In this document: positions 843 through 55,493 of the stretch, piece after piece
Layout of the letters: every line of letters begins with the position of its first letter
Position numbering within the stretch: position 1 is the first letter of the stretch
Assembly (NCBI RefSeq): GCF_019039255.1
Contig: NZ_CP077062.1
Coordinates: 1,426,001-1,490,000 of the forward strand
DNA: 64,000 nucleotides
Reading direction: 5' to 3'
Source: Nocardioides panacis
GTDB taxonomy: Bacteria; Actinomycetota; Actinomycetes; Propionibacteriales; Nocardioidaceae
Notes under the pieces: generated by a model
The model's database searches: none
What the model was told of the DNA's origin: nothing
Seen by the model: only the letters and a program-made list of their open reading frames with translations
Made by a program: the position numbers and the translations under genes

Positions 843-2908
843 GTGGGAGTTGGCGACGTCTCGAAACGCATCTTGCTGGGCCGCAAGCTGCGCAGCACGC
901 AGCTCGGCGAGACCTTGCTGTCCAAGCGCATCGCGCTGCCGGTGTTCGCCAGCGACGCCCTCTCGTCGGTCGCCTACGCGCCGGACGAGGTCTTCATCAT
1001 GCTGTCGGTCGCCGGCGTCACGGCCTACGCCTGGTCGTGGAAGATCGCGATCCTGGTGGCCATCGTGATGCTGACCGTGGTCACGTCCTACCGGCAGAAC
1101 GTGCACGCCTACCCCAGCGGCGGCGGTGACTACGAGGTCGCCACGGTGAACCTCGGCCCGACCGCGGGTGTCACGGTCGCCAGCGCGCTGCTCGTCGACT
1201 ACGTGCTGACCGTCGCGGTGTCGATCTCCTCGGGCATCCAGAACGCCGCCTCGGCGATCGGCTTCGTCTCCGGGCACGAGGCGTTCTGGGCCAGCATCCT
1301 GGTGCTGGTCCTGGCCGCCCTGAACCTGCGCGGCGTCCGGGAGTCCGGCACGTTCTTCGCCATCCCGACCTACGGCTTCCATGGTCGGCATCATGGGGAT
1401 GTCCCTCTGGGGGCTCTACCGCGCCGTGACCGGCACGCTGCCCGACGTCGAGAGCGCCAGCTTCACGCTGATCAAGGCGCCCGGCTACGAGGGCCAGATC
1501 ACCACCGTCGCGCTGATCTTCCTGCTGGCCCGCGCGTTCTCCTCGGGCTGTGCCGCGCTGACCGGCGTCGAGGCGATCTCCAACGGCGTCCCGGCGTTCC
1601 GCAAGCCGAAGAGCAAGAACGCCGCCACCACGCTGCTGCTGCTCGGCACGATCGCGGTCACCATGCTGATCAGCATCATCCTGCTGGCCCGCAAGATGGG
1701 TCTGAAGTACGTCGACCCCAACGACCTGGACCGGCTGCGCACCGCGTCGGGCGACCCGCTGCCGGCCGGCTACGACCAGCACACCGTGATCGCCCAGATC
1801 GCCCGCTCGGTGTTCGACAACTTCACGCCCGGCTTCTACTTCGTGATCGCGATGACCGGCATCATCCTGGTGCTGGCCGCGAACACCGCCTTCAACGGCT
1901 TCCCGGTCCTCGCCTCGATCCTGGCCAAGGACGGCTACCTGCCCCGGCAGCTCGGCTCCCGCGGCGACCGGCTCGCCTACAGCAACGGCATCCTGATCCT
2001 GGCCTTCATGGCGATCGCGCTGATCGTCGCCTTCGACGCCGAGGTCACCCGGCTGATCCAGCTCTACATCGTCGGCGTGTTCGTGTCGTTCAACCTCAGC
2101 CAGCTCGGGATGATCCGGCACTGGACCCGGCACCTGAAGGCCGAGACGGACCCGGCGGTCCGCCGGCGGATGCAGCGCTCGCGGCTGATCAACAGCTTCG
2201 GCCTCGCGATGACCGCGGTCGTGTTCGTGATCGTGCTGGTCACCAAGTTCCTCGCCGGCGCCTGGATCGCGATCCTGGCGATGGGCACCTTCTTCATGCT
2301 GATGCAGAGCATCCGCCGGCACTACGACAACGTCGGCCGCGAGCTCACCGTGGAGGCCGACGACCAGGTGCTGCCCACGCGGGTGCACGCCATTGTGCTG
2401 GTCTCCAAGGTGCACAAGCCGACGATGCGGGCGCTGGCCTACGCCAAGGCGAGCCGGCCCAACGTCCTCGAGGCGGTGCTCGTCGACGCCGACGCGGCCT
2501 CCACGGCCCGGATGCTCGAGGAGTGGGACGAGCGGGGGGATCGACGTACCGCTGAAGGTGCTGTACTCGCCGTACCGCGAGATCATCCGCCCGGTCGTGG
2601 AGTACGTCCGCAGCATCCGCGACGCCAACCCCCGCGGCGTGGTCGCGGTCTACATCCCGGAGTACGTCGTCGGCCGCTGGTGGGAGCAGGTGCTGCACAA
2701 CCAGACCGCGCTCCGCCTGAAGGGCCGGCTGCTGTTCATGCCCGGCGTGATGGTGACGTCGGTGCCCTACCAGCTGCACTCCTCGGTGCTCGCCAAGCAG
2801 CGCGCCGAGCGGGCGCTCAACCAGGTCCGCGCCGGCGACGTGCGCCGGGGCGAGACGCTGCGCAAGCCACCCACACCCCCCACGGACCACCGCGAGGACA
2901 TGAGTTGA
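843..2908 (+). CDS. KimA-like APC-family potassium transporter (frameshifted twice in this sequence)
   Basis: The corrected product is about 687 residues: an APC-fold membrane domain of about 12 helices plus a cytosolic universal-stress-protein-like C-terminal domain. Signature stretches such as SSDALSSVAY (here ASDALSSVAY), SYRQNVHAYPSGGG, LLVDYVLTVAVSIS and FSSGCAALTGVEAISN closely resemble Bacillus subtilis KimA (YdaO), the K+/H+ symporter that binds c-di-AMP. Mycobacterial Rv2690c is the syntenic relative. The frame is broken by an extra C in TTCC at 1379-1380 and an extra G in the G6 run at 2534-2539; removing one base at each restores a continuous protein. The GTG start follows a -10 box with no RBS. 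The stop overlaps the TTG start of the next gene. Older annotations would say amino-acid permease; K+ transport is inferred from KimA similarity and TrkA neighbours. Confidence 0.85.
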
Positions 2909-4164
2909 GCACCGGCAACCGGCACCGCCCGCGTCCGAAGAAGGTCCGTGGCCGGTCCCTGGTCGGGGAGCGGTACGACGTCCGCCCCGAGCGGATCGCG
3001 CACGGCGGGTTCGTCGTCGCCCGGCACGAGGGCGTCGTCGTCTTCGTCCGGCACGCGCTGCCCGGCGAGCGGGTCGTCGTCGAGGTCACCGAGGGGCAGG
3101 AGGGCGACCGCTTCCTGCGCGCCGACGCCGTGCAGGTGCTCGAGGCCTCCCCGGACCGGGTCACCCCGCCCTGCCCGTTCTCCGGTCCGGACGCCTGCGG
3201 CGGCTGCGACTTCCAGCACGTCGCGGTCCCGGCCCAGCGTGCCCTGAAGGCCGCCGTGGTCGCCGAGCAGCTGCAGCGGCTCGCCGGCCTCGACGTCGAG
3301 GTGACGGTGGAGGCTCTCGACACGCGCGACCACCCGGAGGACGGGCTGGACTGGCGGACCCGGGTGCAGTGGGCGGTCACCCGCGACGGCGACCCCGGGC
3401 TGCGCAAGCACCGCTCCCACGAGGTGGTCGAGGTCGACGACTGCCGCATCGCGCACCCTGGGCTGCCCGAGGTGACGGGCACCGAGTGGACCGACGCGGC
3501 GGCCGTGGAGTCGATCGTCTCCTCGACCGGCCAGCAGCTCCGGCTGGTCACGGCGCGGGACGGGGCGACGTACGCCGACGGGCCGCTGGTGCTCACCGAG
3601 GAGGCCGCCGGCCGCACCTGGCAGGTCACCGGATCGGGCTTCTGGCAGGTGCACCCCGGTGCCGCCGACGCGCTCGTGGCCGCCGTCCTGGACGGGCTCG
3701 ACCCGCAGCCGGGGGAGCGCGCGGTCGACCTCTACTCCGGGGTGGGGCTGTTCACGGCGGCGCTCGCGGAGCGGGTCGGGCTGACCGGCCACGTGGTGGC
3801 GGTGGAGTCCGACGAGGTCGCGGTGGCGGACGCGCAGGAGAACCTCCGCGACCTCCACCAGGTCTCGCTGGTCCGGGACCGGGTGGACCGGGCGCTGGCC
3901 GAGGACGTCACCGGGCTGCGCGACCTGGTCGTGCTCGACCCGCCGCGCACCGGCGCGAAGCGGGAGGTGGTGGCGGCGATCGCCGCGCTCGCTCCCCGCG
4001 CCGTGGCGTACGTCGCCTGCGACCCGGCCGCGCTGGCCCGCGACGTGGCGTTCTTCGCCGAGCAGGGCTACACGCTGCGGTCGCTGCGGGCGTTCGACCT
4101 GTTCCCGATGACGCACCACGTCGAGTGCGTCGCGGTGCTGGTCCGCGCGCATCGTGTATCTTGA
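2905..4164 (+). CDS. TRAM-domain class I SAM-dependent RNA methyltransferase (TrmA/RlmD family)
   Basis: A 419-residue protein that makes 5-methyluridine in tRNA or 23S rRNA. A TRAM RNA-binding domain covers residues 15-80. Cys90, Cys98, Cys101 and Cys180 are placed to hold a 4Fe-4S cluster. SAM binding is shown by DLYSGVG (275-281). DPPRTG (345-350), the nucleophile Cys372 in YVACDPAALARD, and the base Glu407 in MTHHVEC complete the catalytic set. The TTG start overlaps the permease stop by four bases, which implies coupling. The same permease-methyltransferase order occurs at Rv2690c-Rv2689c. The exact RNA target cannot be fixed from sequence. The C-terminal codons run into the palindrome in front of acnA. 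Confidence 0.92.
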   Translation: MSTGNRHRPRPKKVRGRSLVGERYDVRPERIAHGGFVVARHEGVVVFVRHALPGERVVVEVTEGQEGDRFLRADAVQVLEASPDRVTPPCPFSGPDACGGCDFQHVAVPAQRALKAAVVAEQLQRLAGLDVEVTVEALDTRDHPEDGLDWRTRVQWAVTRDGDPGLRKHRSHEVVEVDDCRIAHPGLPEVTGTEWTDAAAVESIVSSTGQQLRLVTARDGATYADGPLVLTEEAAGRTWQVTGSGFWQVHPGAADALVAAVLDGLDPQPGERAVDLYSGVGLFTAALAERVGLTGHVVAVESDEVAVADAQENLRDLHQVSLVRDRVDRALAEDVTGLRDLVVLDPPRTGAKREVVAAIAALAPRAVAYVACDPAALARDVAFFAEQGYTLRSLRAFDLFPMTHHVECVAVLVRAHRVS

Positions 4165-7212: not shown

Positions 7213-7557
7213 TCAGCGCAGGCCGATCTGGCGGGAGCAGGACGGCCAGGCGCCCCAGCCCTGCGCCCCGAGCACCCGCTCGGCGACCTGGATCTGCTCG
7301 GTGCGGCTGGCGCGGTGGGCCATGGAGGCGTACCGCTGGCCGCCGAAGGCGCGCCAGGTGCCGGCGCTGAACTGGAGACCGCCGTAGTAGCCGTTGCCGG
7401 TGGCGACGTGCCAGCGGCCGCCGGACTCGCACTGGGCGAGCCGGTCCCAGGGGCGTCCGGCCGCGTCCGCGGGAGCGGAGGCCAGCACCGGCTGGAGCAG
7501 CGCGGTGGCGGTGAGGGCGAGGGCGGGCAGGGCGAAGCGAGACGTGCGTGAGCGCAT
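7213..7557 (-). CDS. Secreted resuscitation-promoting-factor-like transglycosylase
   Basis: A 114-residue secreted protein. A signal peptide occupies about residues 1-33, with cleavage near ADAAG. One Rpf domain follows: WDRLAQCESGG (catalytic Glu44), the YYGGLQFSAGTWRAFGG core, and Cys43 and Cys107 placed for the family disulfide. Rpf enzymes cleave peptidoglycan glycan strands and promote regrowth from dormancy. ATG 7557 is chosen over the codon 15 bases upstream because GGAGAGG is well spaced ahead of it. The leader is a c-di-AMP riboswitch, so expression should fall or rise with that nucleotide. There are no extra cell-wall-binding domains, so it is a minimal Rpf. Confidence 0.9.
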   Translation of the reverse strand: MRSRTSRFALPALALTATALLQPVLASAPADAAGRPWDRLAQCESGGRWHVATGNGYYGGLQFSAGTWRAFGGQRYASMAHRASRTEQIQVAERVLGAQGWGAWPSCSRQIGLR

Positions 7558-7568
7558 GAAGGACCTCT

Positions 7569-7733
7569 CCACGCCTGCGGAATTAGCTGTCGGGTTAGGG
7601 CGAAGGTCGTGCCCTGCCGGTCGTGACCGGCTTCACCCCGAGGCACCCGGGTGGGTGCCGTCGAGCGTGGGTCTCCCGCTCCTGCCCACATGGTTCGAGT
7701 GGGGGACGACCGGCCGCGGGCAGGACTCGGCGA
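7569..7733 (-). ncRNA. ydaO-yuaA (c-di-AMP) riboswitch in the rpf leader
   Basis: Read on the minus strand, the 5' part has CGCCGAG, then GAACC, GGGAGACCCA and GGGGTGAA. The 3' part has CCGACAGCTAATTCCGCAGG running into GCGTGG. These are the conserved blocks, in order, of the ydaO-yuaA class that I know from Streptomyces and mycobacterial rpf leaders. It ends 12 bases before the rpf start, and a possible -10 (TAGGTG, 7770-7775) lies upstream. In this class, binding of cyclic di-AMP generally turns downstream expression off. Confidence 0.88.
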
Positions 7734-7842: not shown

Positions 7843-8140
7843 ATGATCGTTGCCATCAGCATCAGCCCGTCCGGAGCCGACGACACCGGGGGGCGTCAGC
7901 GGGGCCGTCGCCGAGGCGGTGCGGGTGATCCGCGCCTCCGGCCTCCCGTGTGAGACGAACGCCATGTTCACCAACATCGAGGGGGAGTGGGACGAGGTGA
8001 TGGCGGTGGTCAAGCAGGCCGTCGACGTCGTCGCGGCGTCGTCCCCGCGGATCGGCCTGGTGCTCAAGGCCGACATCCGCCCGGGGTACGACGGCCAGCT
8101 GGCCGCCAAGGTCGAGCGGATCGAGCAGCACCTTGCGTAG
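7843..8140 (+). CDS. Thiamine-binding protein, MTH1187/YkoF-like (frameshifted)
   Basis: The corrected protein is about 98 residues: MIVAISISPSG, then a break, then GVSGAVAEAVRVI and ETNAMFTNIEGEWDEVMAVVKQAVD. This is the Thiamine_BP (UPF0045) family, small ferredoxin-like-fold proteins that bind thiamine or its pyrimidine moiety. The ATG at 7843 has GGTGGAGG upstream. One extra G in the G6 run at 7888-7893 breaks the frame after codon 15; with five Gs the reading is continuous. The stop overlaps the TTG start of the YjbQ gene by eight bases, so the two are probably made together. Confidence 0.85.
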
Positions 8141-10654: not shown

Positions 10655-10973
10655 ATGTACGGCTACACCATGCACGTCCCGGCCCCGGCCGAGACCTACC
10701 TGGCGCTGCACCAGGCGGTCGCCGACGTGATCGGCGAGAAGGGCGGCGGCGAGGGCCTGATCCTGCACCTGGCGCTCAGGACCGACCAGGGGTTCGACCT
10801 GACCGAGGTGTGGGAGTCCAAGGAGCAGCTGGACGCGTTCAACCAGGACGTGTTCCCCCCTGGCGATGGCCCGGGCCGGGATCCCCATGGACGGGCCGCC
10901 GCCGGCGACCGTGGAGCTCGACCCCCTCGCGGTGGTGACGCCACGGGCGTTCAGCTCCGACGCGATGGTCTGA
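10655..10973 (+). CDS. Conserved hypothetical protein (frameshifted)
   Basis: The corrected protein is about 105 residues: MYGYTMHVPAPAETYLALHQAV, then EVWESKEQLDAFNQDVFP, then LAMARAGIPMDGPPP and a tail ending AFSSDAMV. It resembles small dimeric alpha-beta-barrel (ABM/EthD-like) proteins, in which a short domain reads a quality or substrate score, but I cannot name a family with certainty. An extra C in the C6 run at 10855-10860 breaks the frame; with five Cs the C-terminal part is restored and ends at a TGA at 10971. A strong GAAGGAGG ribosome-binding site sits in front, made from the last unit of a tandem repeat. Confidence 0.7.
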
Positions 10974-16693: not shown

Positions 16694-17995
16694 GGGGGGC
16701 ACGGGAGGCGCGCGGGGACGGCCGTGGGGGTGCTGGTCGCGCTGGCGCTGGCGGCGGGCTGCACCACCGGCCCGCAGACCCGCGCCCGGCCGTCGGCGGC
16801 CCCCACCGCGTCCGTCACGCACGTCAACAGCCAGCTGGCCGAGGTCGAGCTGCAGGCGATGGCCCAGCGCATCGTGCACCGCCGCGAGCGGGCCGTCCGG
16901 CACCGCGACCTGCGGGCCTGGATCGCCGACCTCGACCCCGCGAACCACGCGCTGCGGGCCCGGGAGCGGCGCCGGTTCGCCAACCTCGTGCAGCTCCCGC
17001 TGGCGACCTACCAGCTCGACGCGGTCCCGACCACCTGGCCGGGCGGCTTCGCGGCGAGGCGGTTCCGGGGGACCGCCTACATCCCGTACGTCGAGGAGGC
17101 GCTGCAGCTGCGCGGCTTCGACACCGCGCCGGTCGTCACCACCACGGGAGTCACCTTCGCCCGGGTGGACGGCCGCTGGCGCATCGTGTCCGACGACGAC
17201 GTCGCCGACCGGGAGCCGGACGGCTCGCGGAACAAGCCGTGGGACCTGACCCGGATCGTGGTGCGCCGCACCCCGCACGCGCTCGGCATCTTCGACGCCG
17301 CCTCGGCCCCCTCCGCGGACCGGCTGATGGCCTGGACCGAGCAGAGCGTCGGCACCGTACGACGGGCGGTGCCCCTGCGGTGGCCGGGCCGGGTGGTGTT
17401 CTACGCGCTGTCCAGCCCGCGGCTGCTGCGGGGGATGGGCACCCGGTTCCTGGACCGCGCCGCGATCGCGTTCCCGGTCTACGACGACCTCGGCCGGCCC
17501 ACCCGGCGGGTGGCGACCCGGGTGGTGATCAACCCGCGCTACCTGCCGCGCACCGAGCGCCAGGGCAGCTACCTGCTCACCCACGAGCTGACCCACGTGG
17601 CGCTGGCCCGCACCAACGGCGGCACGCCGTCGTGGGTGCAGGAGGGGCTCGCCGACTTCGTCGCGACCCGCGGGGCCTCGCCGGACTGGTGGCTGCCCTC
17701 GGCGGCCTCGGTGGCCCGGGCCCGCAGGGGCGCGGACGCGATGCCCGGCAGCACGTTCTTCGGCGACGCCGACCCGGCCTTCGAGTACGACCTGTCGCTG
17801 GCCGCCTGCGCGGTGCTCGCCGGCCGGTCCGGCACCGGCCGGCTCTGGAGCTTCCTGCGGCGGCTGTCCGCGGCGGGTTTCGCCGACGGGGACGCCGAGG
17901 CGCACACCGACGCGGTGCTCGGCGCGATGTTCGGCCTGGACACCCGCCGGCTGGCCCGTGCCGCGGCCCGGCTGGTCGTCGCCCGGGGGTCGTGA
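16690..17995 (+). CDS. Lipoprotein with gluzincin-type metallopeptidase motif (frameshifted near start)
   Basis: The corrected protein is about 434 residues. MRGHGRRAGTAVGVLVALAL followed by AAGC gives a lipoprotein signal with lipidated Cys24. A mixed N-terminal domain runs to about residue 210. The C-terminal half holds HELTH (298-302) and Glu318 in WVQEGLADF, the HExxH...E arrangement of gluzincin zinc peptidases (peptidase MA-like). The extra G in the G6 run at 16694-16699 breaks the frame after codon 2. With five Gs the ATG at 16690, which overlaps the SDR stop, leads straight into the signal peptide. Probably a surface protease of unknown target. Confidence 0.78.
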
Positions 17996-18119: not shown

Positions 18120-19902
18120 ATGCCCCAGATCCCACCCCGCCGCCGGCTGATCGCCACCCTCGGCGTGGCCGCCGCCACCACCCTCGCGCTGGTCGCCTCG
18201 ACCGGTGCCGCTCCCGCCCTGGCCCAGGGTCACGCCGCGGTCGCGAAGCCGCACAAGAAGAAGCCGGTCAAGCCGAACGTCAAGCTCCAGATCCTCGCGA
18301 TCAACGACTTCCACGGCCAGCTCGAGCCCAGCACCTCCTCCTCGTCGGGCACCATCAACGGCACCCCCCGCGGGCGGTGCGGAGTACCTCGCCACCCACC
18401 TCGCCAAGGTCCGCGCGCTGGCGAAGTCCAACGGCCGGCACAGCGTGACCGTCGCCGCGGGTGACCTGATCGGCGCGACGCCGCTGCTCTCGGCGGCCTT
18501 CCACGACGAGCCCACGATCACCGCGATGAACAAGATGGGCCTGCAGATCGCGAGCGTCGGCAACCACGAGTTCGACGAGGGCTGGCGCGAGCTGCGCCGG
18601 ATGCAGACCGGCGGCTGCCTGCCGGACGGCAACGGCAAGGACAACCAGAACTCCTGCCCGACCGGCAGCTTCCGCGGCGCGGACTTCCAGTACCTCGCGG
18701 CCAACGTCACCCGTACCGACACCGGGCGCACGGTGTTCCCCGCGGTCAAGGTCGAGAAGTACGACGGCGTGAAGGTCGGCTTCATCGGCATGACGCTGGA
18801 GAACACCCCGAACATCGTCACCAAGTCCGGCGTCGAGGGCCTGAAGTTCTCCGACGAGGTGGAGACCGCCAACCGGCTCGCCAAGCGGATGGACGCCAAC
18901 GGCGTGAAGTCGATCGTCGTGCTGGTGCACGAGGGCGGCTTCCCGAGCGACCCGACGGCGTACAACTCCTGCCCGGGGATCTCCGGCCCGATCGTCGACA
19001 TCAACAAGGGCCTCAGCCCGCGCATCGACGCGGTGATCACCGGCCACACGCACCAGGCCTACAACTGCAAGCTGCTCGACCCGAACGACGACCCGCGGCT
19101 GGTCACCAGCGGCTCGAGCCTGGGCCGCCTGGTCACCAACATCAAGATGACGATCAGCAAGAAGACCGGTGACGTGGTCCGCACCTCGGAGACCGCCGAC
19201 AACCGGGTGATCACCCGCGACGTCCCCAAGTCCGCCTCCCTCACCACGCTGATCAACCGCTTCAAGGCGCTGGTCGCCCCGATCGAGAACAAGGTCATCG
19301 GCCACCTCGCCGGGGGCACCACCTCGGTGAGCCGGACCAACGACGACAGCGGCGAGTCCCCGCTTGGCAACCTGATCGCGGACGCGCAGAAGAACGACAC
19401 GTCGGCCGTGACCGCCGGGAAGACGCCGGAGATCGCGTTCATGAACCCGGGCGGCATCCGCGCGGACCTGCAGTCGAGCGGCGGGTCGGTCACCTACGGC
19501 CAGGCGTTCTCGGTGCAGCCGTTCAACAACTACGACGTGTCGATGGACCTGACCGGGTCGCAGATCCTGTCGCTGCTCGACCAGCAGTGGTCCGGCACCA
19601 ACGCCGCGAGCCCCAAGATCCTGCAGGTCTCCGGGATCACGTACTCCTACACCAAGTCCGGCACGACCTACACGCTCAAGCCGGAGACGGTCCAGGTCAA
19701 CGGTGCGGCCCTGGACAAGGCCCGCACCTACCGCGTGGTCGCCAACTCGTTCCTGTCCGACGGTGGTGACGGCTTCGCGGCCTTCACCGGCGGCGTGAAC
19801 AAGTACTTCGGCGGCCTGGACATCGACGCGTTCTCGCGGTACCTCGCCGCGCACGACCCGTACACCCCGGTCGCCACCGACCGGATCACCGTCGCCCCCT
19901 GA
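18120..19902 (+). CDS. Secreted 5'-nucleotidase / 2',3'-cyclic phosphodiesterase, UshA-like (frameshifted)
   Basis: The corrected protein is about 593 residues. A signal peptide (RRRLIATLGVAAATTLALVA, residues 7-26) is followed by a Lys-rich linker. The metallophosphatase domain carries the metal motifs AINDFHG, AGDLIGAT, GNHEFDEG and GHTHQAY. The C-terminal 5'-nucleotidase domain has GGIRAD, FNN and SDGGDGF. Outside the cell it would strip phosphate from nucleotides. ATG 18120 has GAGGAG spaced 8 bases. An extra C in the C6 run at 18364-18369 breaks the frame after about codon 81; five Cs restore GTPAGGAEYLATH. The 124-bp upstream region is AT-richer but shows no certain PhoP box. Confidence 0.9.
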
Positions 19903-21137: not shown

Positions 21138-23235
21138 TCAGTGGAAGCGCTTCCCGGTGACCTTCTCCGAGACGCCCTCCCGGTCGAGCAGCTGGGTCAG
21201 GCCGCCGTTCCAGAACGAGAAGCCGGCCCCGGTGATCATCGCCAGGTCCAGGTCCTCCGGCGCCGCGACGACGCCCTCGTCGAGCATCCGGCGGGCCTCG
21301 TCGGCCAGCGCCTCGAGGGTCCGGGCGCGTACGGCGGCCGGGGCCAGCTCGGTCCCGTCGGCGGGCACCGCGAAGATCTCCGCGACCTCCGGGTCCACCG
21401 AGAAGTCCGGCGCGTACACGCTCGTCCTCCCCGAGGCGACGAGCTTCTCGAGGCTGGGGGAGACGTAGAACCGGTCCGGGAAGGCGCGCTGCAGCGTCTG
21501 GCTGTTGTGCAGCGCGATGGCCGGCCCGACCAGGGACAGCAGGAAGAACGGCGGCATCGGGGCGACCCCGGCGAACGCGCCGTCGGCGACGGCGAGCGGG
21601 GTGCCCTCGTCGACGATCCTGCCGACCTCGCCCATGGAAGCGGCCGAGCAGCCGGTTCACGATGAACGAGGGGCTGTCCTGGACCAGGATGCTGGTCTTC
21701 CTCAGCGCCTTGCCGGTCGCGAACGCGGTGGCCAGGGTGGCGTCGTCGGTGGTCGCGCCGCGGACGATCTCGAGCAGCGGCATCACCGCGACCGGGTTGA
21801 AGAAGTGGAAGCCCACCACCCGCTCCGGGTGCTCGAGGTCGGCGGCCATCTCGCCGATCGACAGCGACGAGGTGTTGGTGGCCAGCACGCAGGTCGGCGA
21901 CACCACCGCCTCGACGTCGGCGAAGACGCGCTTCTTGACCTGCATCTCCTCGAAGACCGCCTCGATCACGAAGTCGGCGTCCGCGAAGGACGTGGTCTTG
22001 TCGACCGTCCCGGAGACCAGGGCCTTGAGCCGGTTGGCCTTGTCGGCCGACACCCGACCCTTGGCGAGCAGCTTGTCGACCTCGGCGTGCACGTAGCCCA
22101 CGCCCTTGTCGACGCGCGCCTGGTCGAGGTCGGTCAGCACCACCGGCACCCCCAGCCGGCGCACGAAGAGCAGGGCGAGCTGGCTGGCCATGAGGCCGGC
22201 ACCCACGATCCCGACCTTGGTGACCGGTCGGGCCAGCGCCTTGTCGGGCGCACCCGCGGGACGCTTGGCGCGCTTCTGCACCAGGTCGAAGGAGTACAGG
22301 CTGGCCGCCAGCTCCGGGGTCATCATCAGGTCGGCGAGCGCCTCGTCCTCGGCGGCGAAGCCCTCGTCGCGGGACGCGGTCCTCGCGCCCGCGATCAGGT
22401 CCAGCGCGCGGTAGGCCGCGGGGGAGGCGCCGCCGGTCTTGGAGTCCGCGACGCCGCGGCCCTTCGCGACCGCTGCGTCCCAGGCCTCGCCCCGGTCGAC
22501 CTCGGGGCGCGCGACCACGACGTCGCCGGTGAGCACCCGGGCCGCCCAGAGCAGGGACTGCTCCAGGAAGTCGGCGCCCTGGAACTCCGCGTCGGCCAGC
22601 CCCGCCTCGAAGGCGGCGTGCCCGGTCAGCGTGCGGCCCTGGTTGAGCGGGTTCTCCAGGATCAGCTTCACGGCGGTCGCGGCGCCGACGAGGTTCGGCA
22701 CCAGGTAGGCGCCGCCCCAGCCGGGCACCAGGCCGAGCATCACCTCGGGCAGGCCGAGAGCCGGCGCGGAGTCCTGCACGGTCCGGTAGGTGCAGTGCAG
22801 CGCGACCTCCAGGCCACCACCGAGCGCGAGCCCGTTGACGAACCCGAACGTCGGCGTGCCGCCCTCACCGAGCTTGCGGAACACGCCGTGCCCGGCGCGC
22901 GCGATCAGCAGCGCGTCGTCGCGGCCGCCCAGGCCGGTCAGGCCGGTCAGGTCGGCCCCGGCCGCGAGGATGAACGGCTTGCCGGTCACCCCGATCGCGG
23001 CGACGTCCGCGCGGGCCAGTGCCGCGTCGATCGCGGTGTTCAAGGACGCCAGCGACCGCGGCCCGAACGTGTTGGGCCGGGTGTGGTCCAGCCCGTTGTC
23101 GAGGGTGATCAGCGCCATCGTGCCGGCGCCGTACGGCAGGGCCACGTCGCGCGACTTGGCCTCGGTGACCACCTCGTCGGGGGACAGCGCGGCGGCCCGG
23201 TCGAGCAGGTCCTGGAGCTCAGCGGTGGTCGTCAT
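21138..23235 (-). CDS. FadB-like enoyl-CoA hydratase / 3-hydroxyacyl-CoA dehydrogenase (frameshifted)
   Basis: The corrected protein is about 698 residues, the normal size of the multifunctional beta-oxidation enzyme. The N-terminal crotonase half (residues 1-300) has the oxyanion-hole stretch [10 protein letters not shown] and [13 protein letters not shown]. The C-terminal dehydrogenase half begins [17 protein letters not shown], with [15 protein letters not shown] and [11 protein letters not shown]. An extra base at 21636-21637 (CTTCCATGG instead of CTTCATGG on the coding strand) breaks the frame near residue 534; without it the protein continues [11 protein letters not shown] to the stop. 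The start overlaps the thiolase stop by one base. It should work with that thiolase in fatty-acid beta-oxidation. Confidence 0.92.
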
Positions 23236-32685: not shown

Positions 32686-33574
32686 TCAGATCGTCGCAGG
32701 GCCGAACCGGCCGAGCAGGTGGGGCTTGCCGTCCTGCGGGCGGGACAGCGCGAACACGTAGCCGTCGCCGCGGCGCGCGGACGCGAACAGCACCCGGCCG
32801 GGCAGCAGCACCGGCTTCTTGAACGCGACGTCCACGGTGACCGCCTCGGGCAGCCGGCCGTCCAGCGCGGCCAGGCAGCGGCCCTCGCTCCACATGCCGT
32901 GCGCGATCTGCCGCGGGAAGCCGAAGGCCTTGGCGGTCAGGCCGTAGAGGTGGATCGGGTTGTGGTCGCCCGAGACCGCGGCGTACCGGCGGCCGAGGTC
33001 GGCCCCGAGCTGCCAGGAGGTCCCCGTCGGCTCCGGCTGCTCGAACGCCTCCGGCTGGTCGGGCTCCCCGAGACCACTCGTCCCGACCCTCAGGAACGTG
33101 CTGGTCTCCTGCCACACCAGCTCGCCGGCGGAGTGCACGTGGGTGACCAGGTCGAAGACCCGGCCCTTGGCGTGCGGGCGCAGGCTCGCCGGGCGGGCGG
33201 TGACCTGGAGCCTCTCGGTCGCCGCGATCGGGCGCAGCTGGGTCAGCGAGTTCTCGAGGTGCACGGTGCCGACGGCCGGGAACGGGAACGAGCGGTCGGT
33301 CATGATCCGCAGGTGCAGCCCGAACGCGAGCAGGTGCGGGTAGGTGACCGGCAGGGTCTCCTTGAGCGGGAACCCGCAGACCTCGGCGTACGACGCGAGG
33401 TGCGCCCGGTCCACGGGGACGTCGTGCCGGGTCAGGGTGAGGTCCGGGAGCGTGTCGCCGGTCTTGCGGACCCCGGGCACGAGCTTGGCGCCCGGCAGCA
33501 CCGGCAGCGCGGCCCGCAGCATCATCGGCAGCGTCGAGGGGGGAGCCCTGGACCACCTGCGGCTCGCCGGTCAT
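32686..33574 (-). CDS. MaoC-like (R)-hydratase/dehydratase, HtdX-like (frameshifted near start)
   Basis: The corrected protein is about 295 residues. The C-terminal hotdog holds the hydratase motif, with its Asp and His in SGDHNPIHLYGLTAKAFGFP and IAHGMW. An N-terminal hotdog precedes it, as in HtdX (Rv0241c). The family hydrates enoyl-thioesters or dehydrates 3-hydroxyacyl-thioesters. The ATG at 33574 overlaps the fabG4 stop. The G6 run at 33538-33543 (C6 on the coding strand) has one base too many; five restore MTGEPQVVQGSPSTLPMMLR. If that is ignored, an internal ATG at 33525 would be chosen wrongly. Confidence 0.87.
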
Positions 33575-38643: not shown

Positions 38644-40198
38644 CTACGTCGCAGCATGCCCTTCGTCGCCGGTTTGGTGAAGCCCCCGCACGATCTCGAC
38701 GCTGTCGGCCTCGTCGGCGGTCTTGTCGTCGCGGTAGCGCAGCACCCGGGCGAAGCGCAGCGCCATCCCGGCGGGGTAGCGGGTGGAGGTCTGGATGCCG
38801 TCGAACGCGATCTCCACGACCTGCTCGGGCCGCACCGTCACGACGTGCGCCGAGCGGGACTCCTCCAGCGCCAGGAACCGATCGGTCTGCCAGGTGAGCA
38901 TCTCGTCGGTCATGCCCTTGAACGTCTTGCCGAGCATCACGAAGCCGCCGGACTCCGGGTCGCGCGCGCCGAGGTGGATGTTCGACAGCCAGCCCTGCCG
39001 GCGGCCGCTGCCCCACTCGACGGCCAGCACCACGAGGTCCAGGGTGTGCCGGGGCTTGACCTTGACCCACCCGGCGCCCCGCCGGCCCGCGTCGTACGGC
39101 GCGTCGAGGGACTTGACCACGACGCCCTCGTGGCCGGCGGCGACGACCTCGGCGAACAGCCGCCGCGCCTCGGCCGGGTCGGCGGTCACGGTGCGCGGCA
39201 CGACCAGCGCCGGGGGCAGCACGGTCGCGAGCCGGTCGAAGCGCTCGCGCCCGGGGGCGTCGACGAGGTCCTCGCCGTCGACGTGCAGCAGGTCGAAGAA
39301 GTACGACGTGAGCGGGACCTGCGCCCGCAGGGTCTCGACGTCGACCCGCGAGGCGGTGCGGGCGCCGGTCTCCTGGAACGGCCGGGCCCGGCCCTCGGCG
39401 GTCAGCGCGATCGCCTCGCCGTCCAGCACCAGGGTGTGGGCCGGCAGGGCGGCGACCGCCTCGACGACCTCCGGCACCCGGTCGGTGATCTCCTCCAGGC
39501 TGCGGGTGAACACCCGGACCCGGCCGGCGTGCTTGTGCACCTGGACGCGGATCCCGTCGAGCTTCGCGTCGACCGCGACAGGTCCGTCGCCGATCCGGGC
39601 CAGCGCCTCGTCGACGTCCGCGGCGCTGGAGGCGAGCATCGGCCGGATCGGGCGGCCGGGCTCCAGCCCGAACTCCGCGAGCGCCTCGACGCCCCCCGGT
39701 GAGCGCGGCGGCCGCGACCGGCAGCGTGGAGCCCGCGAACATCGAGGCCCGGCGTACGGCGGCCGCGGGCACGTCCGCGGCCACGGCGACCGCCTCGAGC
39801 ATCAGCCCGTCGAGGGCGCCCTGCCGCAGCTCACCGGTGACCAGCCCGCGCAGGTAGGCCTGCTCGTCGGCGGTGGCCCGCGCGAACAGCGACTCGACCA
39901 GGGCGGTGCGCCGGGCCTGCGACCCGGGGCCGGAGACGCCGGCGATCTCCTCGAAGGCGTCGTGCACCTCGGCCACCGTCAGGCTGCCGGTGTCCGCAGG
40001 GGCGGGCAGCGAGGTCAGGCCGCGCCAGCCGAGCCCGGTGCGGCGCTGGCGCAGCACGCCGGACAGGTAGGACGTGGCGGTCGGCACCTCCGCCGGACCG
40101 GCCTGGCGCAGCGCGGCGGCGAGGGCGGCGACCTTGGCGGTGCGGGAGCGGGTCGCCCCGACCGCGGAGGACGCGGCGACGAGGTCAGAGAGGAGCAC
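38644..40198 (-). CDS. ligB: ATP-dependent DNA ligase (LigB family; frameshifted)
   Basis: The corrected protein is about 517 residues. A helical DNA-binding domain (residues 1-185) is followed by the adenylation domain with Lys212 in DAKLDGIR (the AMP-binding lysine), GEAIAL, and [23 protein letters not shown]. The OB domain has [11 protein letters not shown]. It matches mycobacterial LigB (Rv3062), a dispensable nick-sealing enzyme probably used in repair. An extra C in the C6 run at 39692-39697 (G6 on the coding strand) breaks the frame at residue 168; five restore [14 protein letters not shown]. The GTG start matches the family start LLxDLVAAS. Confidence 0.92.
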
Positions 40199-40238: not shown

Positions 40239-41166
40239 GTGACGGAGTCGGAGCGCGTGTGGCGGCCCTCCTGGCCGTGCGACGTCCGGATGACCCTCTC
40301 GATCCTGCGCAAGGGCAGCGCGGACCCGACGTTCAAGGTCGACGACGACGGCACCGTGTGGCGCGGCATCCGCACCCCGCAGGGCACCGCGACCGTCCGG
40401 CTCCGCTCCCGCCCGACCGACGGGGAGGTGCACGCGCACGCCTGGGGCGACGGCGCCGCCTGGGCGCTGGACAGCGTGCCGTCCATGCTCGGTGCCGACG
40501 ACGACGTCACCGGGTTCGCGCCGACCCACCCGGTGCTCGCGGACGCTCACCGGCGCAAGCCGCACTGGCGGGTCTGCCGCACCGGGCTGGTGATGGAGGC
40601 CCTGGTGCCGGCGATCATCGAGCAGAAGGTGACCGGCCAGGAGGCACTCGGCGGGTTCCGGAAGCTCGTGCACCGCTACGGCGAGCGCGCGCCCGGCGCC
40701 GGCACGGACCGGGGGGCTGTGGGTGCAGCCGTCGGCCGAGAGCGTCCGGATGGTGCCGTCCTGGGAGTGGCTGCGGATGCACATCGACCCGGCCCGCTCC
40801 CGCGCCGTGGTCCGGGCCGCGCAGGTCGCGCCCGCGATCGAGCGCACCGCCTCGGTGCCCGCCGACGAGGCCGACCGGCGGCTCCGGTCGCTCCCCGGGA
40901 TCGGGGTGTGGACCAGCGCCGAGGTGCGCTTCCGGGCGCACGGCGACGCCGACGCGGTGAGCTTCGGCGACTACCACATCGCCAAGAACGTGGGCTGGGC
41001 GCTGACCGGGCAGGAGGTCGACGACGACGGCCTGGCCGAGCTCCTGGAGCCCTACCGGCCGCACCGCTACCGCGTCCAGCGCCTCGTCGAGCTCGCGGGC
41101 CTCGGCCGGCCGCGGCACGGACCTCGGATGGCACCGCGCCGGCACCTGCCGGCCACCCGCGGCTGA
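40239..41166 (+). CDS. DNA-3-methyladenine glycosylase, AlkA-like (frameshifted)
   Basis: The corrected protein is about 308 residues. An N-terminal beta domain (RMTLSILRKGSADPTF) is followed by a helix-hairpin-helix GPD domain. EALVPAIIEQKVTGQEA is the substrate pocket, LRSLPGIGVWTSAEVRFRA the HhH, and GDADAVSFGDYHIAKN holds the catalytic aspartate. It removes alkylated bases. The G6 run at 40711-40716 has one G too many; five give TDRGLWVQPSAESVR. It is divergent from the ligB repair gene, a sensible repair pair. The start is a leaderless GTG. Confidence 0.9.
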
Positions 41167-41578: not shown

Positions 41579-42281
41579 CTACCAGTGCGCACCCAACGGG
41601 CCCACGGGCAGCCCGCGCTCGGCCCAGTCCGCGAGCAGCAGCGCGGAGGCGGTGAGCGTGGCCCGCCAGGACCCGGGAGCCGAGGTCCGGTCGCTGTCGT
41701 GGAGCAGCACCGTGCCCCCCGGGACGCAGCCCGGCACCGACCCGGTGGGCGACCGACTCGGCCGTCGCGCCCCGCGTCCAGTCCCGGCCCCAGGTGGTCC
41801 ACAGCACGGTGCGCAGGCCGGCCGAGCGGGCCGCGGCCAGGCCCTCGGTCGTCAGCACCCCGTACGGCGGTCGGTACCACTCCGCACGCCGACCGGTGGT
41901 CCCCGCCAGCAGGTCGGTGCTGCGCCGCAGCTCGTCGCGCAGGACGCCGGGCCGCTTCGCGGCGAGGCAACGGTGGTCCCAGCCGTGCACGGCGATCTCG
42001 TGCCCCCGGTCGGACATCTCGCGGACCAGGCCCCGGTGCGCCCCGACGTGCGCGCCCAGCACGAAGAACGTCGCCGTGACGCCGTACCGCTCCAGGAGCG
42101 CGAGGAACGCCGGGGTCGAGGCGGCGTCCGGGCCGTCGTCGTAGGTGAGGGCGACGTGGTGGCGCCCGCTGCGTCCGGCGAGCGCGGGCAGGCAGCGGTT
42201 CCGGACCGGGGCGAGCGAGGTCAGCGCCGGGGCGAGCTGGGCAGCGGCGGCGAGCCCGGCCAGCCGGGCGACCCGGCTCAC
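41579..42281 (-). CDS. Polysaccharide deacetylase (NodB-like; frameshifted)
   Basis: The corrected protein is about 233 residues. The NodB domain has TYDDGPD (Asp48/Asp49), the metal-binding His99 and His103 in HGWDH (Gly replaces the usual Ser/Thr at the second position), RPPYG and LHDSDRTSAPGSWRATLT. The hydrophobic start (LAGLAAAAQLAPALTSLAP) may be a membrane anchor. It removes acetyl groups from a glycan. The C6 run at 41715-41720 has one base too many; five give GLRPGGTVLLHDSD. The GTG overlaps the upstream glycosyltransferase stop (GTGA). Confidence 0.87.
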
Positions 42282-43457: not shown

Positions 43458-44292
43458 TCAGGGGCGCACCGAGCGGGGGAGCGTGCCGGCCTCGGTGATC
43501 CGCTCGCGCAGCGGCGTGACCAGCTCGTGCAGCCGGGCGGTCCGCTCTGAGCCGACGTGCGCCCAGCCCTCGAGCGCGAGCCGGTCGGTCTGGTCCTCGA
43601 TCCGCCGCCGCTCGTCGCGGCCGAGGTCGGTGAACGCTCCGTCCGCGTCGAGCCAGCCACGCTGCACCAGGCGTCCGGTGGCCGCGTCGTACTCCTCGTC
43701 GGTCCAGCCGCGGGTCTTGCGCAGGAACGAGGTGGTGCCGGAGAACAGCCCGCCCAGGACGGTCGCCTCCACCGGGTCGACCCCGGACGTCTGGAGCACC
43801 GCGACGTGCCCGTCCCCGCGGTGCTCGCGGACCAGCGTCGCGGCGTGCCACAGCGCCAGTAGGTCGTCCTCGGGCCAGTCCAGGCCGGCGTGCGCGGCGT
43901 ACAGCGGGCGGCCCTGCGGGGTGAGGCCCTCGCAGACCTCGCGGGCGATCTCCAGCGCCTCGGCGACGTCGGGCTCGCCGAGCAGGCCGCGCAGCGCGGT
44001 CGCCATGCCCCGGCGCCGGGCCTCGACCAGCGCGGTGGGCGTCGTGGTCCGCCACGCGGCCGGCAGCGCGGCGTCGACCAGCCAGGGGGCGAACACGTAG
44101 AACGTCGCCACGGTCAGCCCCGGTCCGGCCTCGCCGAACGCGGCCGCGCGGGCCGGGAAGTAGGACAGGCTCCTGTGCAGCCCGAGGTCGACGTACTCCT
44201 GGGACACCTCGGGGGCGAAGTAGCCGACGACGTGCAGCACCTCCAGGTCCCCCCCAGGCCTTGCGGGACAGGGGCAGCAGCGCGTCATCCAT
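43458..44292 (-). CDS. SCO6745-family protein (frameshifted)
   Basis: The corrected protein is about 277 residues, MDDALLPLSRKAWGDLEVLH then a helical body with PEVSQEYVDLGLHRSLSYFPARAAAFG. The C-terminal half looks like a winged-helix of the MarR type (TRGWTDEEYDAATGRLVQRGWLDADG...TDLGRDERRRIE). It belongs to the actinobacterial SCO6745 group of unknown role. The C7 run at 44249-44255 has one base too many; six restore KAWGDLEV. A TAGGGT -10 box lies 6 bases before the ATG. Confidence 0.82.
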
Positions 44293-49785: not shown

Positions 49786-50158
49786 ATGACGCCGGGGGGA
49801 GCTGCAGCGGCACTGCCTGGCGAAGCCCGGTGCGTGGCCGGACAACCCGTGGGACCACGAGTTCCCGGTGATCAAGGTCGGGAAGGCGCCGGCCGCCGGC
49901 AAGATCTTCGCGTTCCTGGGCGACGGCTCGGTCGGGGTGAAGGCCGGCACGGACCGCGAGCAGGCCGACGAGTGGCTGGCCCGCTACCCCGACGACGCGG
50001 CGGTGATGGCCTACATCGGCCGCTCCGGGTGGAACACCCTGACCGTGGGCGGCGCGATCCCGGACGACGAGATCCTCGCCGCGGTCGACGACTCCTACGC
50101 CCTGGTGGTCTCCCGGCTGGCCCGCAAGCACCGTCCGCCGGGGTGGGAGGAGGCGTGA
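49786..50158 (+). CDS. MmcQ/YjbR family DNA-binding protein (DUF419; frameshifted)
   Basis: The corrected protein is about 123 residues: MTPGELQRHCLAKPGAWPDN, then a break-free body with PWDHEFPVIKVGKAPAAGKIFAFLG and GWNTLTVGGAIPDDEILAAVDDSYALVV. The family is small and CyaY-like in fold, with an unsettled role. The G6 run at 49794-49799 has one base too many; five Gs give the ATG at 49786 a continuous frame. It is probably cotranscribed with uvrB. It is convergent with a DUF1707 gene, and their stops are 1 base apart. Confidence 0.87.
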
Positions 50159-50159
50159 G

Positions 50160-50678
50160 TCAGCCGCCCAGCGCCTTGCGCCGGCGCCTCTCCAGCCGCC
50201 GGCGCTCCGCGAGCACGATCTCCTGCTTGTTCGTCAGCACCCGGACCAGCCGCAGCCCGGTCCACAGCGTGAGGAACGCCGGCCAGGCGAAGCCCGGGTC
50301 GAAGCCCGCGCCCCGGCTCCAGCCGTTGGCCAGCCAGATCGTCCAGGAGACCAGCGACGGCACGAGCAGCCAGGTCAGCGCGTGCTGCCGGGCTGCCTGC
50401 CACCGCTGCACGGCGAGTGCCTGCAGGTCCTCCTCGGGCGCTCGCACCGTCAGCGGCACGAGGTCGAGGATCAGCCCCGGCAGCTGGCCGAGGGTCTTCG
50501 CCGCCGCGGCAGCACCGGCCCGCTCGTCGTACTCCTGCTTGGTGATCCGGCCCTCGGCGTACCCCTCGGTCAGCACCCCGAGCACCACGTCGCGGTCCCG
50601 GTCCGACGCGCGCAGCCGCGCGGTGTCCGGGCGGCGCGGGTCCTCGGTGAAGTCCCCCCACGGGTTCGCAGCAGTCAC
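50160..50678 (-). CDS. DUF1707 domain membrane protein
   Basis: A 172-residue protein. The DUF1707 (SHOCT-like) domain at residues 20-70 has LRASDRDRDVVLGVLTEGYAEGRITKQEYDERAGAA. Two membrane helices follow (about residues 95-115 and 125-150), and a basic tail (RRRLERRRRKALGG) is cytoplasmic. Its role is unknown. The GTG start at 50678 lies 7 bases from a TAGACT box. A C6 run at 50653-50658 is in frame here. Confidence 0.87.
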   Translation of the reverse strand: MTAANPWGDFTEDPRRPDTARLRASDRDRDVVLGVLTEGYAEGRITKQEYDERAGAAAAAKTLGQLPGLILDLVPLTVRAPEEDLQALAVQRWQAARQHALTWLLVPSLVSWTIWLANGWSRGAGFDPGFAWPAFLTLWTGLRLVRVLTNKQEIVLAERRRLERRRRKALGG

Positions 50679-52172: not shown

Positions 52173-52179
52173 CGACGCC

Positions 52180-52185
52180 ACTCTA
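52180..52185 (-). promoter_or_regulatory. -10 box of leaderless abrB-family gene
   Basis: TAGAGT on the minus strand, 7 bases before GTG 52172. Confidence 0.5.
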
Positions 52186-52244
52186 GGTGTGTCCAGGAAC
52201 GGGCGCCGATTCGTGTCAGCGGCCGGATTCTGGGAGCATGGGTC

Positions 52245-52350
52245 CCGTTGGAGGGGAGTATTCCTTCGCAACGGTGTCGTCATCACGGTGCCCGGCCTCG
52301 GCCGGCCCCGGTGCCGTTGGTCCGCGCGAGCGGGCGGGAGAGACCTCCGG
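52245..52350 (+). ncRNA. yybP-ykoY (Mn2+) riboswitch upstream of terC
   Basis: GGAGGGGAGTA (52250-52260) is the conserved 5' part. GTCGTCATCACGGTGCCC follows, then a GGCC-rich variable stem, and GGGCGGGAGAGACCTCC closes the 3' part and pairs back to GGAGG. These blocks in this order define the yybP-ykoY class, known to sense Mn2+ and to sit upstream of TerC and MntP genes. A GC-rich hairpin region (52361-52381) then leads to the terC ribosome-binding site. Confidence 0.85.
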
Positions 52351-52406
52351 ACTTGCTCAGGCGGTGCGCGTCCGCGCGCCGTTCAGCTCTCCGGAAAGGT
52401 CAGTCT

Positions 52407-53465
52407 GTGGACGTTCCCACCTGGGTCTGGTGGACCACCATCATCGTCACGGTGTCGGTCCTGCTCTTCGACGTCATCATCATCGGACGCCGCCCCCACG
52501 AGCCCTCCACCAAGGAGGTCTCGATCTCGCTGGGCGTGTACGTCGGCCTGGCCGTGGTCTTCGGCATCGGCGTGTGGATCTTCTCCGGCCACCAGTACGG
52601 CACCGAGTTCTTCGCCGGCTGGCTGACGGAGTACTCCCTGTCCGTCGACAACCTGTTCATCTTCATCATCATCATGGCCAAGTTCGGCGTCCCGCGGCAG
52701 TACCAGCAGGAAGCCCTGATGGTCGGCATCGTGCTCGCCCTGGTGATGCGCGCGATCTTCATCGCCGTCGGCGCCGCCGCGATCAACGAGTTCAGCTGGA
52801 TCTTCTACATCTTCGGCGCCTTCCTGCTCTACACGGCGTTCAAGCTCGCCTCCGAGGGGTCGAACGACGACGACGAGTACGAGGAGAACCGGCTGATCAA
52901 GTGGGTCGAGACGCACCTCCCGGCCACCGACAAGTGGCACGGCGTGAAGGTGCTCGCCAAGGAGCACGGCAAGCGGGTGATCACCCCGATGTTCATCGTG
53001 GTGCTGGCGCTGGGCACCACGGACCTGCTGTTCGCCCTGGACTCCATCCCGGCGATCTACGGCCTCACCAAGGAGCCCTACCTCGTCCTGACCGCGAACA
53101 TCTTCGCGCTGATGGGCCTGCGCCAGCTCTACTTCCTGATCGGCGGCCTGCTCCAGCGACTGGTCTACCTGTCCTACGGCCTCGCGGTGCTGCTCGGCTT
53201 CATCGGCCTCAAGCTGATCCTGCACGCCATGCACGAGAACGAGCTGCCGTTCGTGAACGGCGGCCAGCACATCGCGTGGGCGCCGGACATCCCGATCCTG
53301 GTCTCGCTGGGCACCATCATCGGCATCCTCGCGATCACCACGGTCGCCAGCCTGATCGCCTCGAAGAACGGCGTGCAGAACAAGAGCCAGCTCGCCGAGG
53401 CGCTCAACGACGACGCCGGCAGCAACGCCGAGGACGTCGAGCCGGCCGGGGACGCGAAGAAGTGA
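52407..53465 (+). CDS. TerC family manganese/metal exporter
   Basis: A 352-residue membrane protein with about 9 helices. The TerC signature is clear: TEYSLSVDNLFIFIIIMAKF and FIVVLALGTTDLLFALDSIPAIYGLT, whose acidic residues lie in membrane and fit metal binding. An acidic tail (DDDEYEE loop; DDAGSNAEDVE end) faces the cytoplasm. With the yybP-ykoY riboswitch upstream, Mn2+ export is the best inference, although older annotation says tellurium resistance. GTG start with GGAAAGG at 7-base spacing. Confidence 0.93.
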   Translation: MDVPTWVWWTTIIVTVSVLLFDVIIIGRRPHEPSTKEVSISLGVYVGLAVVFGIGVWIFSGHQYGTEFFAGWLTEYSLSVDNLFIFIIIMAKFGVPRQYQQEALMVGIVLALVMRAIFIAVGAAAINEFSWIFYIFGAFLLYTAFKLASEGSNDDDEYEENRLIKWVETHLPATDKWHGVKVLAKEHGKRVITPMFIVVLALGTTDLLFALDSIPAIYGLTKEPYLVLTANIFALMGLRQLYFLIGGLLQRLVYLSYGLAVLLGFIGLKLILHAMHENELPFVNGGQHIAWAPDIPILVSLGTIIGILAITTVASLIASKNGVQNKSQLAEALNDDAGSNAEDVEPAGDAKK

Positions 53466-53510
53466 CCGCGGCGTCCGTGCCGGCCCGTCCCGCCGGCCCC
53501 CAGGACTGAC

Positions 53511-54419
53511 TCAGACGCGCACCCGGCCGGCCGAGACCAGGGTCTCGAGCCGGTGCGGGGCCAGCGGCACGTCCTCGATCAGCTCGCCGCCCTCCGGGGC
53601 GTGCAGCATCCAACGGGTGCCGTCGGCCGCGACCGGGGCGGTCACGAACCCGACGTGGTAGATCCGCTCACCGGGGCGGGCGAAGAAGTACAGGTCGCCC
53701 GGCTGCACGGCGTCCAGCGGCACCGGGTCGACCCGTGGCGAGGCCGCCTGGTCGTGGGCGTCGCGGGGGAGCAGCACGCCCTGGCTGCGCCAGCACAGGT
53801 GCACCAGCCCGGAGCAGTCCACGCCCCAGGCGCTGGTGCCGCCCCACAGGTAGCGCACGCCGAGGAAGCCGCGGGCCGCCTCGAGGACCGGGCCGGGGTC
53901 GTCGGAGGGCAGCTCGCCCTTGTCGGACAGCCGGACCGCGGACGGGTCCAGGGTGCCCGTCCGCCCCCCGGGCAGGTCCACCGACACGGAGCCCGAGGTG
54001 AGCTCGCGCAGCCACAGCACCGTGCCGAACGACAGCACCACCGGCTCGCCGTCCACCAGGCAGGTCGCGGTGCGTGCGGCGACGTACGCGGTCGGCCCGT
54101 CGACCCGGTCGACCGGAGTGTCCAGGTGGGCCGAGCGCACCCAGCCGGGGTAGCCGCGCTCGTCGCGCGAGGAGCGCTGCCAGGGCGCCACGACCCGGGA
54201 CCAGGCGCCGGCCGTCTCGAGCACCTCGACCGGGTCGCCCGCCAGCAGCTGGGTCTCGGTGCGCCCGTGCAGGCCCAGCCGGACCTCCTTGCCCATCGAG
54301 TCCGCCCAGCCCCCGGCGTCGGGGCGGTCGCGTACGGCGGCCTCGTCGAGGTCCCGTGGCGCGTCCGGGGACGTCCACACGGTGGTGACCGGCACGGCCA
54401 CCTCGAGCATCTCGGTCAT
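53511..54419 (-). CDS. NlpC/P60 gamma-D-glutamyl-diamino-acid endopeptidase (YkfC-like)
   Basis: A 302-residue cytoplasmic protein (no signal peptide). Two SH3b-like segments (residues 50-165) precede the NlpC/P60 domain with catalytic Cys202 in GVDCSGLVHL, His255 in YHVGF and His273 in LHAPEGG. YkfC of Bacillus cuts gamma-D-Glu-L-diamino-acid bonds in murein tripeptides inside the cell. It is last in an operon with a beta-lactamase-like protein and a dipeptide epimerase and overlaps the epimerase stop by four bases (ATGA). Confidence 0.92.
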   Translation of the reverse strand: MTEMLEVAVPVTTVWTSPDAPRDLDEAAVRDRPDAGGWADSMGKEVRLGLHGRTETQLLAGDPVEVLETAGAWSRVVAPWQRSSRDERGYPGWVRSAHLDTPVDRVDGPTAYVAARTATCLVDGEPVVLSFGTVLWLRELTSGSVSVDLPGGRTGTLDPSAVRLSDKGELPSDDPGPVLEAARGFLGVRYLWGGTSAWGVDCSGLVHLCWRSQGVLLPRDAHDQAASPRVDPVPLDAVQPGDLYFFARPGERIYHVGFVTAPVAADGTRWMLHAPEGGELIEDVPLAPHRLETLVSAGRVRV

Positions 54420-55493
54420 GCCAGGTCCTCGATCCCGAGTCCGGGGGCGTCCGGCAGCACGACCGTCGCCCCGTCGTAGGTCATCCCGCCGACGACGGGT
54501 GACGCGGTCGCCCACCAGGCGGCGTCCAGGTCGCAGACGGCCGACGTGCCGTGCGCGGCGACCAGGCTGGCTGCGGCGGCCACCCCGATGTGCGTCTCCA
54601 TCATGGAGCCGACGATGCTGCCCATGCCCTGGGCCCGGGCGAGCTCCAGCAGGGTGCCCGCGACGCGCAGCCCGCCGCACTTCGCGAGCTTCCACGTTCA
54701 CCAGGTCGGCCGAGCGCCGGCGGATCACCTCGACGAGGTCCCGGACGCCGTACACCGACTCGTCGGCCATCACCGGGGTCCCCACCCGGTCGGTGACCCA
54801 GGCCATCCCGTCCAGGTCGGCGGCCGGGACGGGCTGCTCGACGAGCTCGACGTCGAGGCCGGCGTCCTCGAGCGCGCCGATCACCCGGACCGCGTCGCGT
54901 GGCGTCCAGCCCTGGTTGGCGTCCAGCCGGATCCGGGTGTCCGGACCGACGGCCGCCCGCACCGCGCGCACCCGTCCGACGTCGGTGGCGGCGTCCGTGC
55001 CGACCTTCATCTTGAGCACCGGGAAGCCGTCGGCGACCCGCGCCCGGGCGGTCCCGGCGAGGGCCTCGGCGTCACCGGCGGCGAGGGTGACGTCGGTGGG
55101 CACCCGCAGCGCGGTGCCGCCCAGCAGCACCGGCAGGCTGACCCCGCGGCGCCGGGCGACCAGGTCGTGCAGGGCCACGTCGACGGCCGCCTTGGCGCCG
55201 TGGTTGCCGGCCACCGCACCGGCGACCTCGCGGCACAGCCCGGCCAGGTCGTCGGGGTGACGGCCCACGACGACCGCCGCCAGCGGCCCGTCGACGCAGG
55301 CCTGGGCGCCGGCGAGCGACTCGCCGGTCACCTGCCACACCTGGGGCGCCTCGCCCCAGCCGGTGACCCCGTCGCTGTCGACGACCCGGACCACGACGGT
55401 GTCCGTGGTGGTGGTCCGGCGCAGCGCGGTCACGAACGGGGTGTGCAGCGGCGTGGTCAGCCGCGTCGTGGTGACGGTCTCGATCCGGCTCAT
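54416..55493 (-). CDS. L-Ala-D/L-Glu (dipeptide) epimerase, YkfB-like (frameshifted)
   Basis: The corrected protein is about 358 residues, of the enolase superfamily. The catalytic acid/base lysines are Lys163 in LKMKVG (with Lys161) and Lys268 in NVKLAKCGG. The metal ligands are Asp191, Glu219 and Asp244. The pattern fits the L-Ala-D/L-Glu epimerase group, used in recycling murein peptides. An extra base at 54691-54693 (coding GTGGAAG instead of GTGAAG) breaks the frame exactly at Lys268. The start overlaps the upstream gene by four bases. Confidence 0.9.

Follow-up and report, generated by a model that had tools for sequence, protein, structure and literature searches.

Systematic single-base insertions at G/C runs and at a short motif in the Nocardioides panacis genome record, interpreted as probable consensus errors

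Broken reading frames in the window

The window analysed here is the 64,000-nucleotide stretch at positions 1426001-1490000 of the single-contig genome of Nocardioides panacis (4,901,775 bases, completeness 99.96%), in which a sequence-only reading had proposed fourteen single-base insertions that break thirteen otherwise intact genes and had ascribed them to base-calling or polishing bias. All 14 positions exist where that reading placed them, and 11 of the 14 lie, as it said, in G or C runs of six or seven bases. BLAST was used to compare the sites with the syntenic DNA of six same-genus genomes (G001-G006, with long syntenic matches at about 70-88% DNA identity to the window), and the relatives' open frames were searched against the window by tblastn; single-site alignments and, for the site at 33538, three-frame translations were added, and the pieces of each broken gene were searched separately against Pfam. 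We also applied a gene model that does not need relatives and scores codon usage, start and stop codons, and frame changes of one base in both directions; an event with a score gain above 20 is termed strong. The sites, with the support obtained for each, are as follows.

1375-1383, plus strand: +1 break where the motif GCTTCCAYG occurs in a gene for an amino acid permease (about 873-2908, plus strand); all six same-genus genomes, with Pfam AA_permease_2 matched before and after the break.
2534-2539, plus strand: +1 break in a G6 run of the same permease gene; 6 of 6 same-genus genomes by tblastn, 4 by blastn.
7888-7893, plus strand: +1 break in a G6 run close to the 5′ end of a gene resembling those for thiamine-binding proteins (PF01910); all six same-genus genomes align with a one-base gap within the run or next to it.
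10855-10860, plus strand: +1 break in a C6 run of a small open reading frame with a sub-threshold monooxygenase-like match; one relative and the gene model.
16694-16699, plus strand: G6 run, supposed 5′ cut of a lipoprotein-like gene (16724-17992); unverified.
18364-18369, plus strand: break of +1 modulo 3 in a C6 run of a 5′-nucleotidase gene (18144-19899); two relatives (tblastn), the gene model and Pfam 5_nucleotid_C.
21633-21641, minus strand: +1 break at GCTTCCAYG in a gene of fatty-acid oxidation similar to FadB/FadJ (21141-23235); all three relatives that cover the site.
33538-33543, minus strand: +1 break in a G6 run close to the 5′ end of a gene for a MaoC-dehydratase-like protein (32689-33525 plus the N-terminus); one same-genus relative.
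39692-39697, minus strand: +1 break in a C6 run of an ATP-dependent DNA ligase gene (38689-40198); five relatives.
40711-40716, plus strand: +1 break in a G6 run of a conserved gene without a Pfam match (40239-41106); 6 of 6 same-genus genomes.
41715-41720, minus strand: +1 break in a C6 run of a polysaccharide deacetylase gene (41600-42281); two relatives.
44249-44255, minus strand: +1 break in a C7 run close to the 5′ end of an HTH_67 family gene (43461-44249, PF21863); one relative.
49794-49799, plus strand: +1 break in a G6 run close to the 5′ end of a gene of the YjbR family (PF04237); one relative, weak local alignment.
54688-54696, plus strand: +1 break at GCTTCCAYG, antisense to a mandelate racemase/enolase-superfamily gene (54422-55502, minus strand); 3 of 3 covering relatives.

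The proposal of one extra base per site therefore holds for 13 of the 14, which break frame against relatives in the +1 sense, and fails to find support at 16694, where the 5′ end of the gene is not conserved in the relatives and the gene-model signal is absent. A plain one-base insertion at 18364 stands only as a frame change equal to +1 modulo 3: local length differences are -26 and -2 bases, so that a plain one-base gap is absent and the sign is taken from the run and the gene model. BLAST and tblastn together give breaks at nine sites (1379, 2534, 7888, 18364, 21636, 39692, 40711, 41715 and 54691), while the single-site alignments add 10855, 44249 and 49794 and raise 7888 to all six relatives. 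At 33538 the N-terminal region is continuous in one same-genus relative, with a one-base gap there. The number of relatives supporting each break ranges from 1 to 6 genomes, with one clearly doing so for each of 10855, 33538, 44249 and 49794. Alignment with same-genus genomes, one of the checks that had been suggested with the original proposal, finds the relatives to carry shorter forms at the tested sites. The domain matches carry on past the breaks: ECH_1 and 3HCDH_N lie on one side of the 21636 break and the 3HCDH C-terminal domain on the other, the 39692 break separates DNA_ligase_A_N (N domain) from DNA_ligase_A_M (catalytic domain), and at 54691 the MR_MLE_C profile positions 3-124 and then 126-214 are matched on the two sides. 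The gene model gives nine events in the window, all +1 and every one at a site already listed. BLAST also shows further gaps that are not multiples of three and are common to at least two relatives, several of them compensating pairs; none is backed as a frame change by the protein-level test. Among the runs that had been offered as in-frame comparisons, two sit 1-2 bases from the places given for them, at 50654-50659 and 53964-53969.

Sign and spread of the events in the genome

The genome sample comprised 1,164,000 bases (the window and 55 stretches of 20 kb) and the relatives' sample 651,320 bases (168,625 of the single-contig G003 and 482,695 of the other relatives). In the former, 187 events were found among 1,184 gene models (144 of +1 and 43 of -1). 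On restricting these to strong events the balance becomes 90 insertions against 6 deletions, 86 of the 90 being +1 in the main path, as opposed to 3 insertions and 5 deletions in the relatives (0 and 3 in G003, 3 and 2 in the others). At least one strong insertion is present in 44 of the 55 stretches outside the window, which indicates a spread over the sampled genome, with strong frame errors at about 8 per 100 kb; the density in the window (9 in 64 kb) is not significantly higher than elsewhere in the sample (81 in 1,100 kb, p 0.10). Thirteen false pseudogenes is a figure for the window alone and not for the genome. By extrapolation, the 90 strong insertions found in 1.164 Mb would correspond to about 380 genome-wide; a figure of about 550 may be nearer, since the scan recovers 9 of the 13 supported window sites. 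One gene model (L143, 14301-15921) holds several clustered frame events of both signs, and this gene may be decayed or unusual rather than an error site.

Sequence contexts of the insertions

Of the strong insertions, 53 have a G/C run of at least six bases no more than 25 nt away, and another 14 are at GCTTCCAYG without such a run. A run of this length is present in 1.5% of random 50-nt windows (first 464 kb), and the homopolymer concentration of the insertions is beyond chance. None of the 6 strong deletions in this genome, nor of the 3 strong insertions in the relatives, is at a run of at least six.

A stricter local test then scored each run or motif place, with four-base runs sampled at one in four. 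It may be noted that leakage from neighbouring sites is possible in this test, and the shorter form TCTTCAYG at window position 2294 probably leaked from 2534. Six-base G/C runs are frame-breaking at 50 of 348 places in this genome, each time +1, and at 0 of 131 in the relatives (Fisher p 5e-8). For longer runs the counts are 9 of 48 (seven bases), 1 of 8 (eight) and 0 of 1 (nine), and for shorter ones 8 of 1,929 (five) and 2 of 2,050 (four), with 0 of 5 (seven), 1 of 1,014 (five) and 0 of 1,103 (four) in the relatives. Site-specific deletions number zero at runs of at least six, both in this genome sample and in the relatives; at five-base runs there are 2 here and 3 in the relatives, and at four-base runs 1 and 1. 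On reading the broken runs in the coding sense, 30 are of G and 21 of C.

The three window sites outside long runs (1379, 21636 and 54691) all carry the motif with a leading G. GCTTCCAYG is frame-breaking at 15 of 50 places here and at 0 of 15 in the relatives (p 0.014). Varying the first base of NCTTCCAYG gives 15 of 50 for G, 2 of 19 for A, 1 of 29 for C and 0 of 24 for T (0 of 38 in all for the relatives), that is, 17 of 69 for RCTTCCAYG as opposed to 1 of 53 for YCTTCCAYG. The extra base is a C on the motif strand. Relative to the gene, the motif sites with leading G or A are 8 in sense and 8 in antisense, and therefore the rule acts on double-stranded DNA and not on mRNA. Two other rules were discarded. 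That every shorter motif copy is altered is contradicted by GCTTCAYG, unbroken at 80 of 80 places, and a restriction to motifs followed by G or T, seen in 464 kb, did not hold once the sample was enlarged, since affected motifs followed by A and C then appeared as well.

Essential genes with no second copy found

Ribosomal protein L10 and CTP synthase are both encoded by essential genes. In stretch L152 the two halves of CTP synthase are in different frames, split at the motif; no second copy was found in a search of the whole genome, and the N-terminal domain gives one full match in 19 of 19 other genomes. In stretch L142 the L10 match starts at profile position 34 and the N-terminal part is in another frame, with the switch at the motif; a search of the genome found no second L10 match. 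Among the other genomes, 17 of 19 have one L10 match that begins at position 1 and ends at 99 or 100; the two without a match have completeness of 86 and 88. The L10 break appears from the profile match and the frames and is weak in the gene model. A tryptophanyl-tRNA synthetase gene is likewise interrupted at a C run, close to the C-terminus of the protein.

Origin of the extra bases

We judge it highly probable (about 0.96), from the sequence comparisons above, that the extra bases arose as systematic errors in the assembly consensus and are not mutations of the organism, because they are one-sided, tied to runs and to one motif, spread over the sample without regard to gene function, present in essential genes and absent in independently sequenced relatives. 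The attribution to base-calling or polishing bias is in this way strengthened, both by one-sided +1 errors across the sampled genome that include the only copies found of essential genes and by the motif common to the three window sites outside long runs. Errors at the signal or read level would overcall G/C runs when these are longer, as well as a single short motif context, and these overcalls would survive polishing, scattered over the genome and nearly all of them insertions. The single contig suggests that a long-read platform was used, and the reads would be expected to contradict the assembly.

Errors of this kind are already known. PMC8011154 (Homopolish) describes the errors left in nanopore assemblies as mainly homopolymer indels that shift frames, and for a draft genome of Pseudomonas aeruginosa gives 14,394 insertions as opposed to 439 deletions. 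PMC12007338 (Kastor) reports 23.3% pseudogenes in one long-read assembly, and insertions at k-mers ending in CCA. As in these nanopore-only assemblies, homopolymer indels here break frames, inflate pseudogenes and are visible against relatives, and as in Kastor insertion errors also occur at non-homopolymer k-mers. The present record differs from such assemblies in having nearly pure insertions, mostly at G/C runs of at least six and at GCTTCCAYG, and from Kastor in the inserted base, which after CCA is A there and is C on the motif strand here. Near-pure over-calling and GCTTCCAYG are features of this record.

Several results weigh against consensus error. Over-calling is opposite to the usual direction in long reads, where PMC11649196 and PMC8486125 give under-calling as the commoner homopolymer error; yet under-calling is typical and not defining of long-read error, as seen from the insertion-dominated drafts in PMC8011154. 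The raw number of six-base runs (3.10 per 10 kb) falls within the range of the same-genus relatives (1.07-4.44), and run-length counts by themselves are no proof of error. The L10 break has a gene-model gain of 11.6, which is under the cut of 20 and so outside the 90. Finally, 23 of the 90 strong insertions are at neither a long run nor GCTTCCAYG, and 4 of these 23 were -1 in the main path; two of the 23 (L191 near 4263 and L196 near 7253) are at ACTTCCACG, which differs from the motif in starting with A.

A fault introduced after base calling, for example when the consensus is polished toward a wrong or distant reference, is an unlikely source. The single sign and the partial penetrance are compatible with post-processing and with base calling alike, but the same-genus relatives carry shorter forms at the tested sites, and polishing toward such a reference would remove the insertions. 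Very improbable is the alternative that these are true pseudogenes, or phase-variable genes arising by homopolymer slippage, with indels perhaps common in the absence of MutS. We did find a NucS match in an open frame of this genome and no MutS_V match in it, a pattern that also occurs in the control genome Corynebacterium glutamicum, and homopolymer phase variation in mycobacteria, described in PMC11898584, speaks for slippage in that it too involves homopolymer indels in an actinobacterium. However, slippage or loss of repair is expected to give both signs, as opposed to the 90 and 6 obtained, and none of the relatives' six-base runs is frame-breaking (0 of 131). In contrast to the mycobacterial case in PMC11898584, a single sign dominates here, L10 and CTP synthase, essential genes for which no second copy was found, are affected, and the motif sites are not repeats; we rejected phase variation and pseudogenes on the one sign and the essential genes. 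The weakest alternative has the insertions real and decoded by programmed +1 frameshifting or by a tRNA that reads four bases; although the frame shifts share one sign and Gly GGG and Pro CCC codon runs are classic +1 sites, it was dismissed as having a negligible chance on the strand symmetry of the motif and the ordinary seven-base anticodon loops in all six Gly/Pro tRNAs inspected (of 46 tRNA matches), besides which G and C runs are both affected in the coding sense and the scan finds no frame break at 298 of the 348 six-base runs.

Other observations

A c-di-AMP riboswitch match (RF00379, 59.4 bits) lies at window positions 7560-7711 on the minus strand, upstream of a small minus-strand gene model at about 7216-7536. 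The closest copies of one window protein, among the named records in the best 80 of 556 loci, include Nocardioidaceae, Marmoricola and Nocardioides. PMC7966762 describes a long-read genome recovered from the family Nocardioidaceae. Three records (L073, L076 and L084) are titled Bifidobacterium breve at 48% identity to the query protein and have isolate names styled like those of environmental metagenome-assembled genomes; this species label looks doubtful.

Implications

The genome looks finished, as a single contig of 99.96% completeness, and a completeness score need not expose frame errors. Users of the record would be led to false pseudogenes, to losses of CTP synthase and ribosomal protein L10 that are not real, and to wrong protein ends. 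Testing the sign and the context of the events reveals such errors without relatives. As for the motif, PMC6591954 describes consensus errors produced by modified motifs; the errors here resemble those at Dcm sites in nanopore data in being tied to one short motif on either strand, and differ from them in partial penetrance (15 broken GCTTCCAYG and 80 unbroken GCTTCAYG) and in that modification is here only a candidate. The motif is perhaps a modified-base context, or merely a sequence that is hard for the basecaller. It is conceivable, though rather doubtful, that the errors linked to RCTTCCAYG in the assembly mark an undescribed DNA modification of the lineage; if so, the error map of an assembly would reveal the specificity of a methyltransferase.

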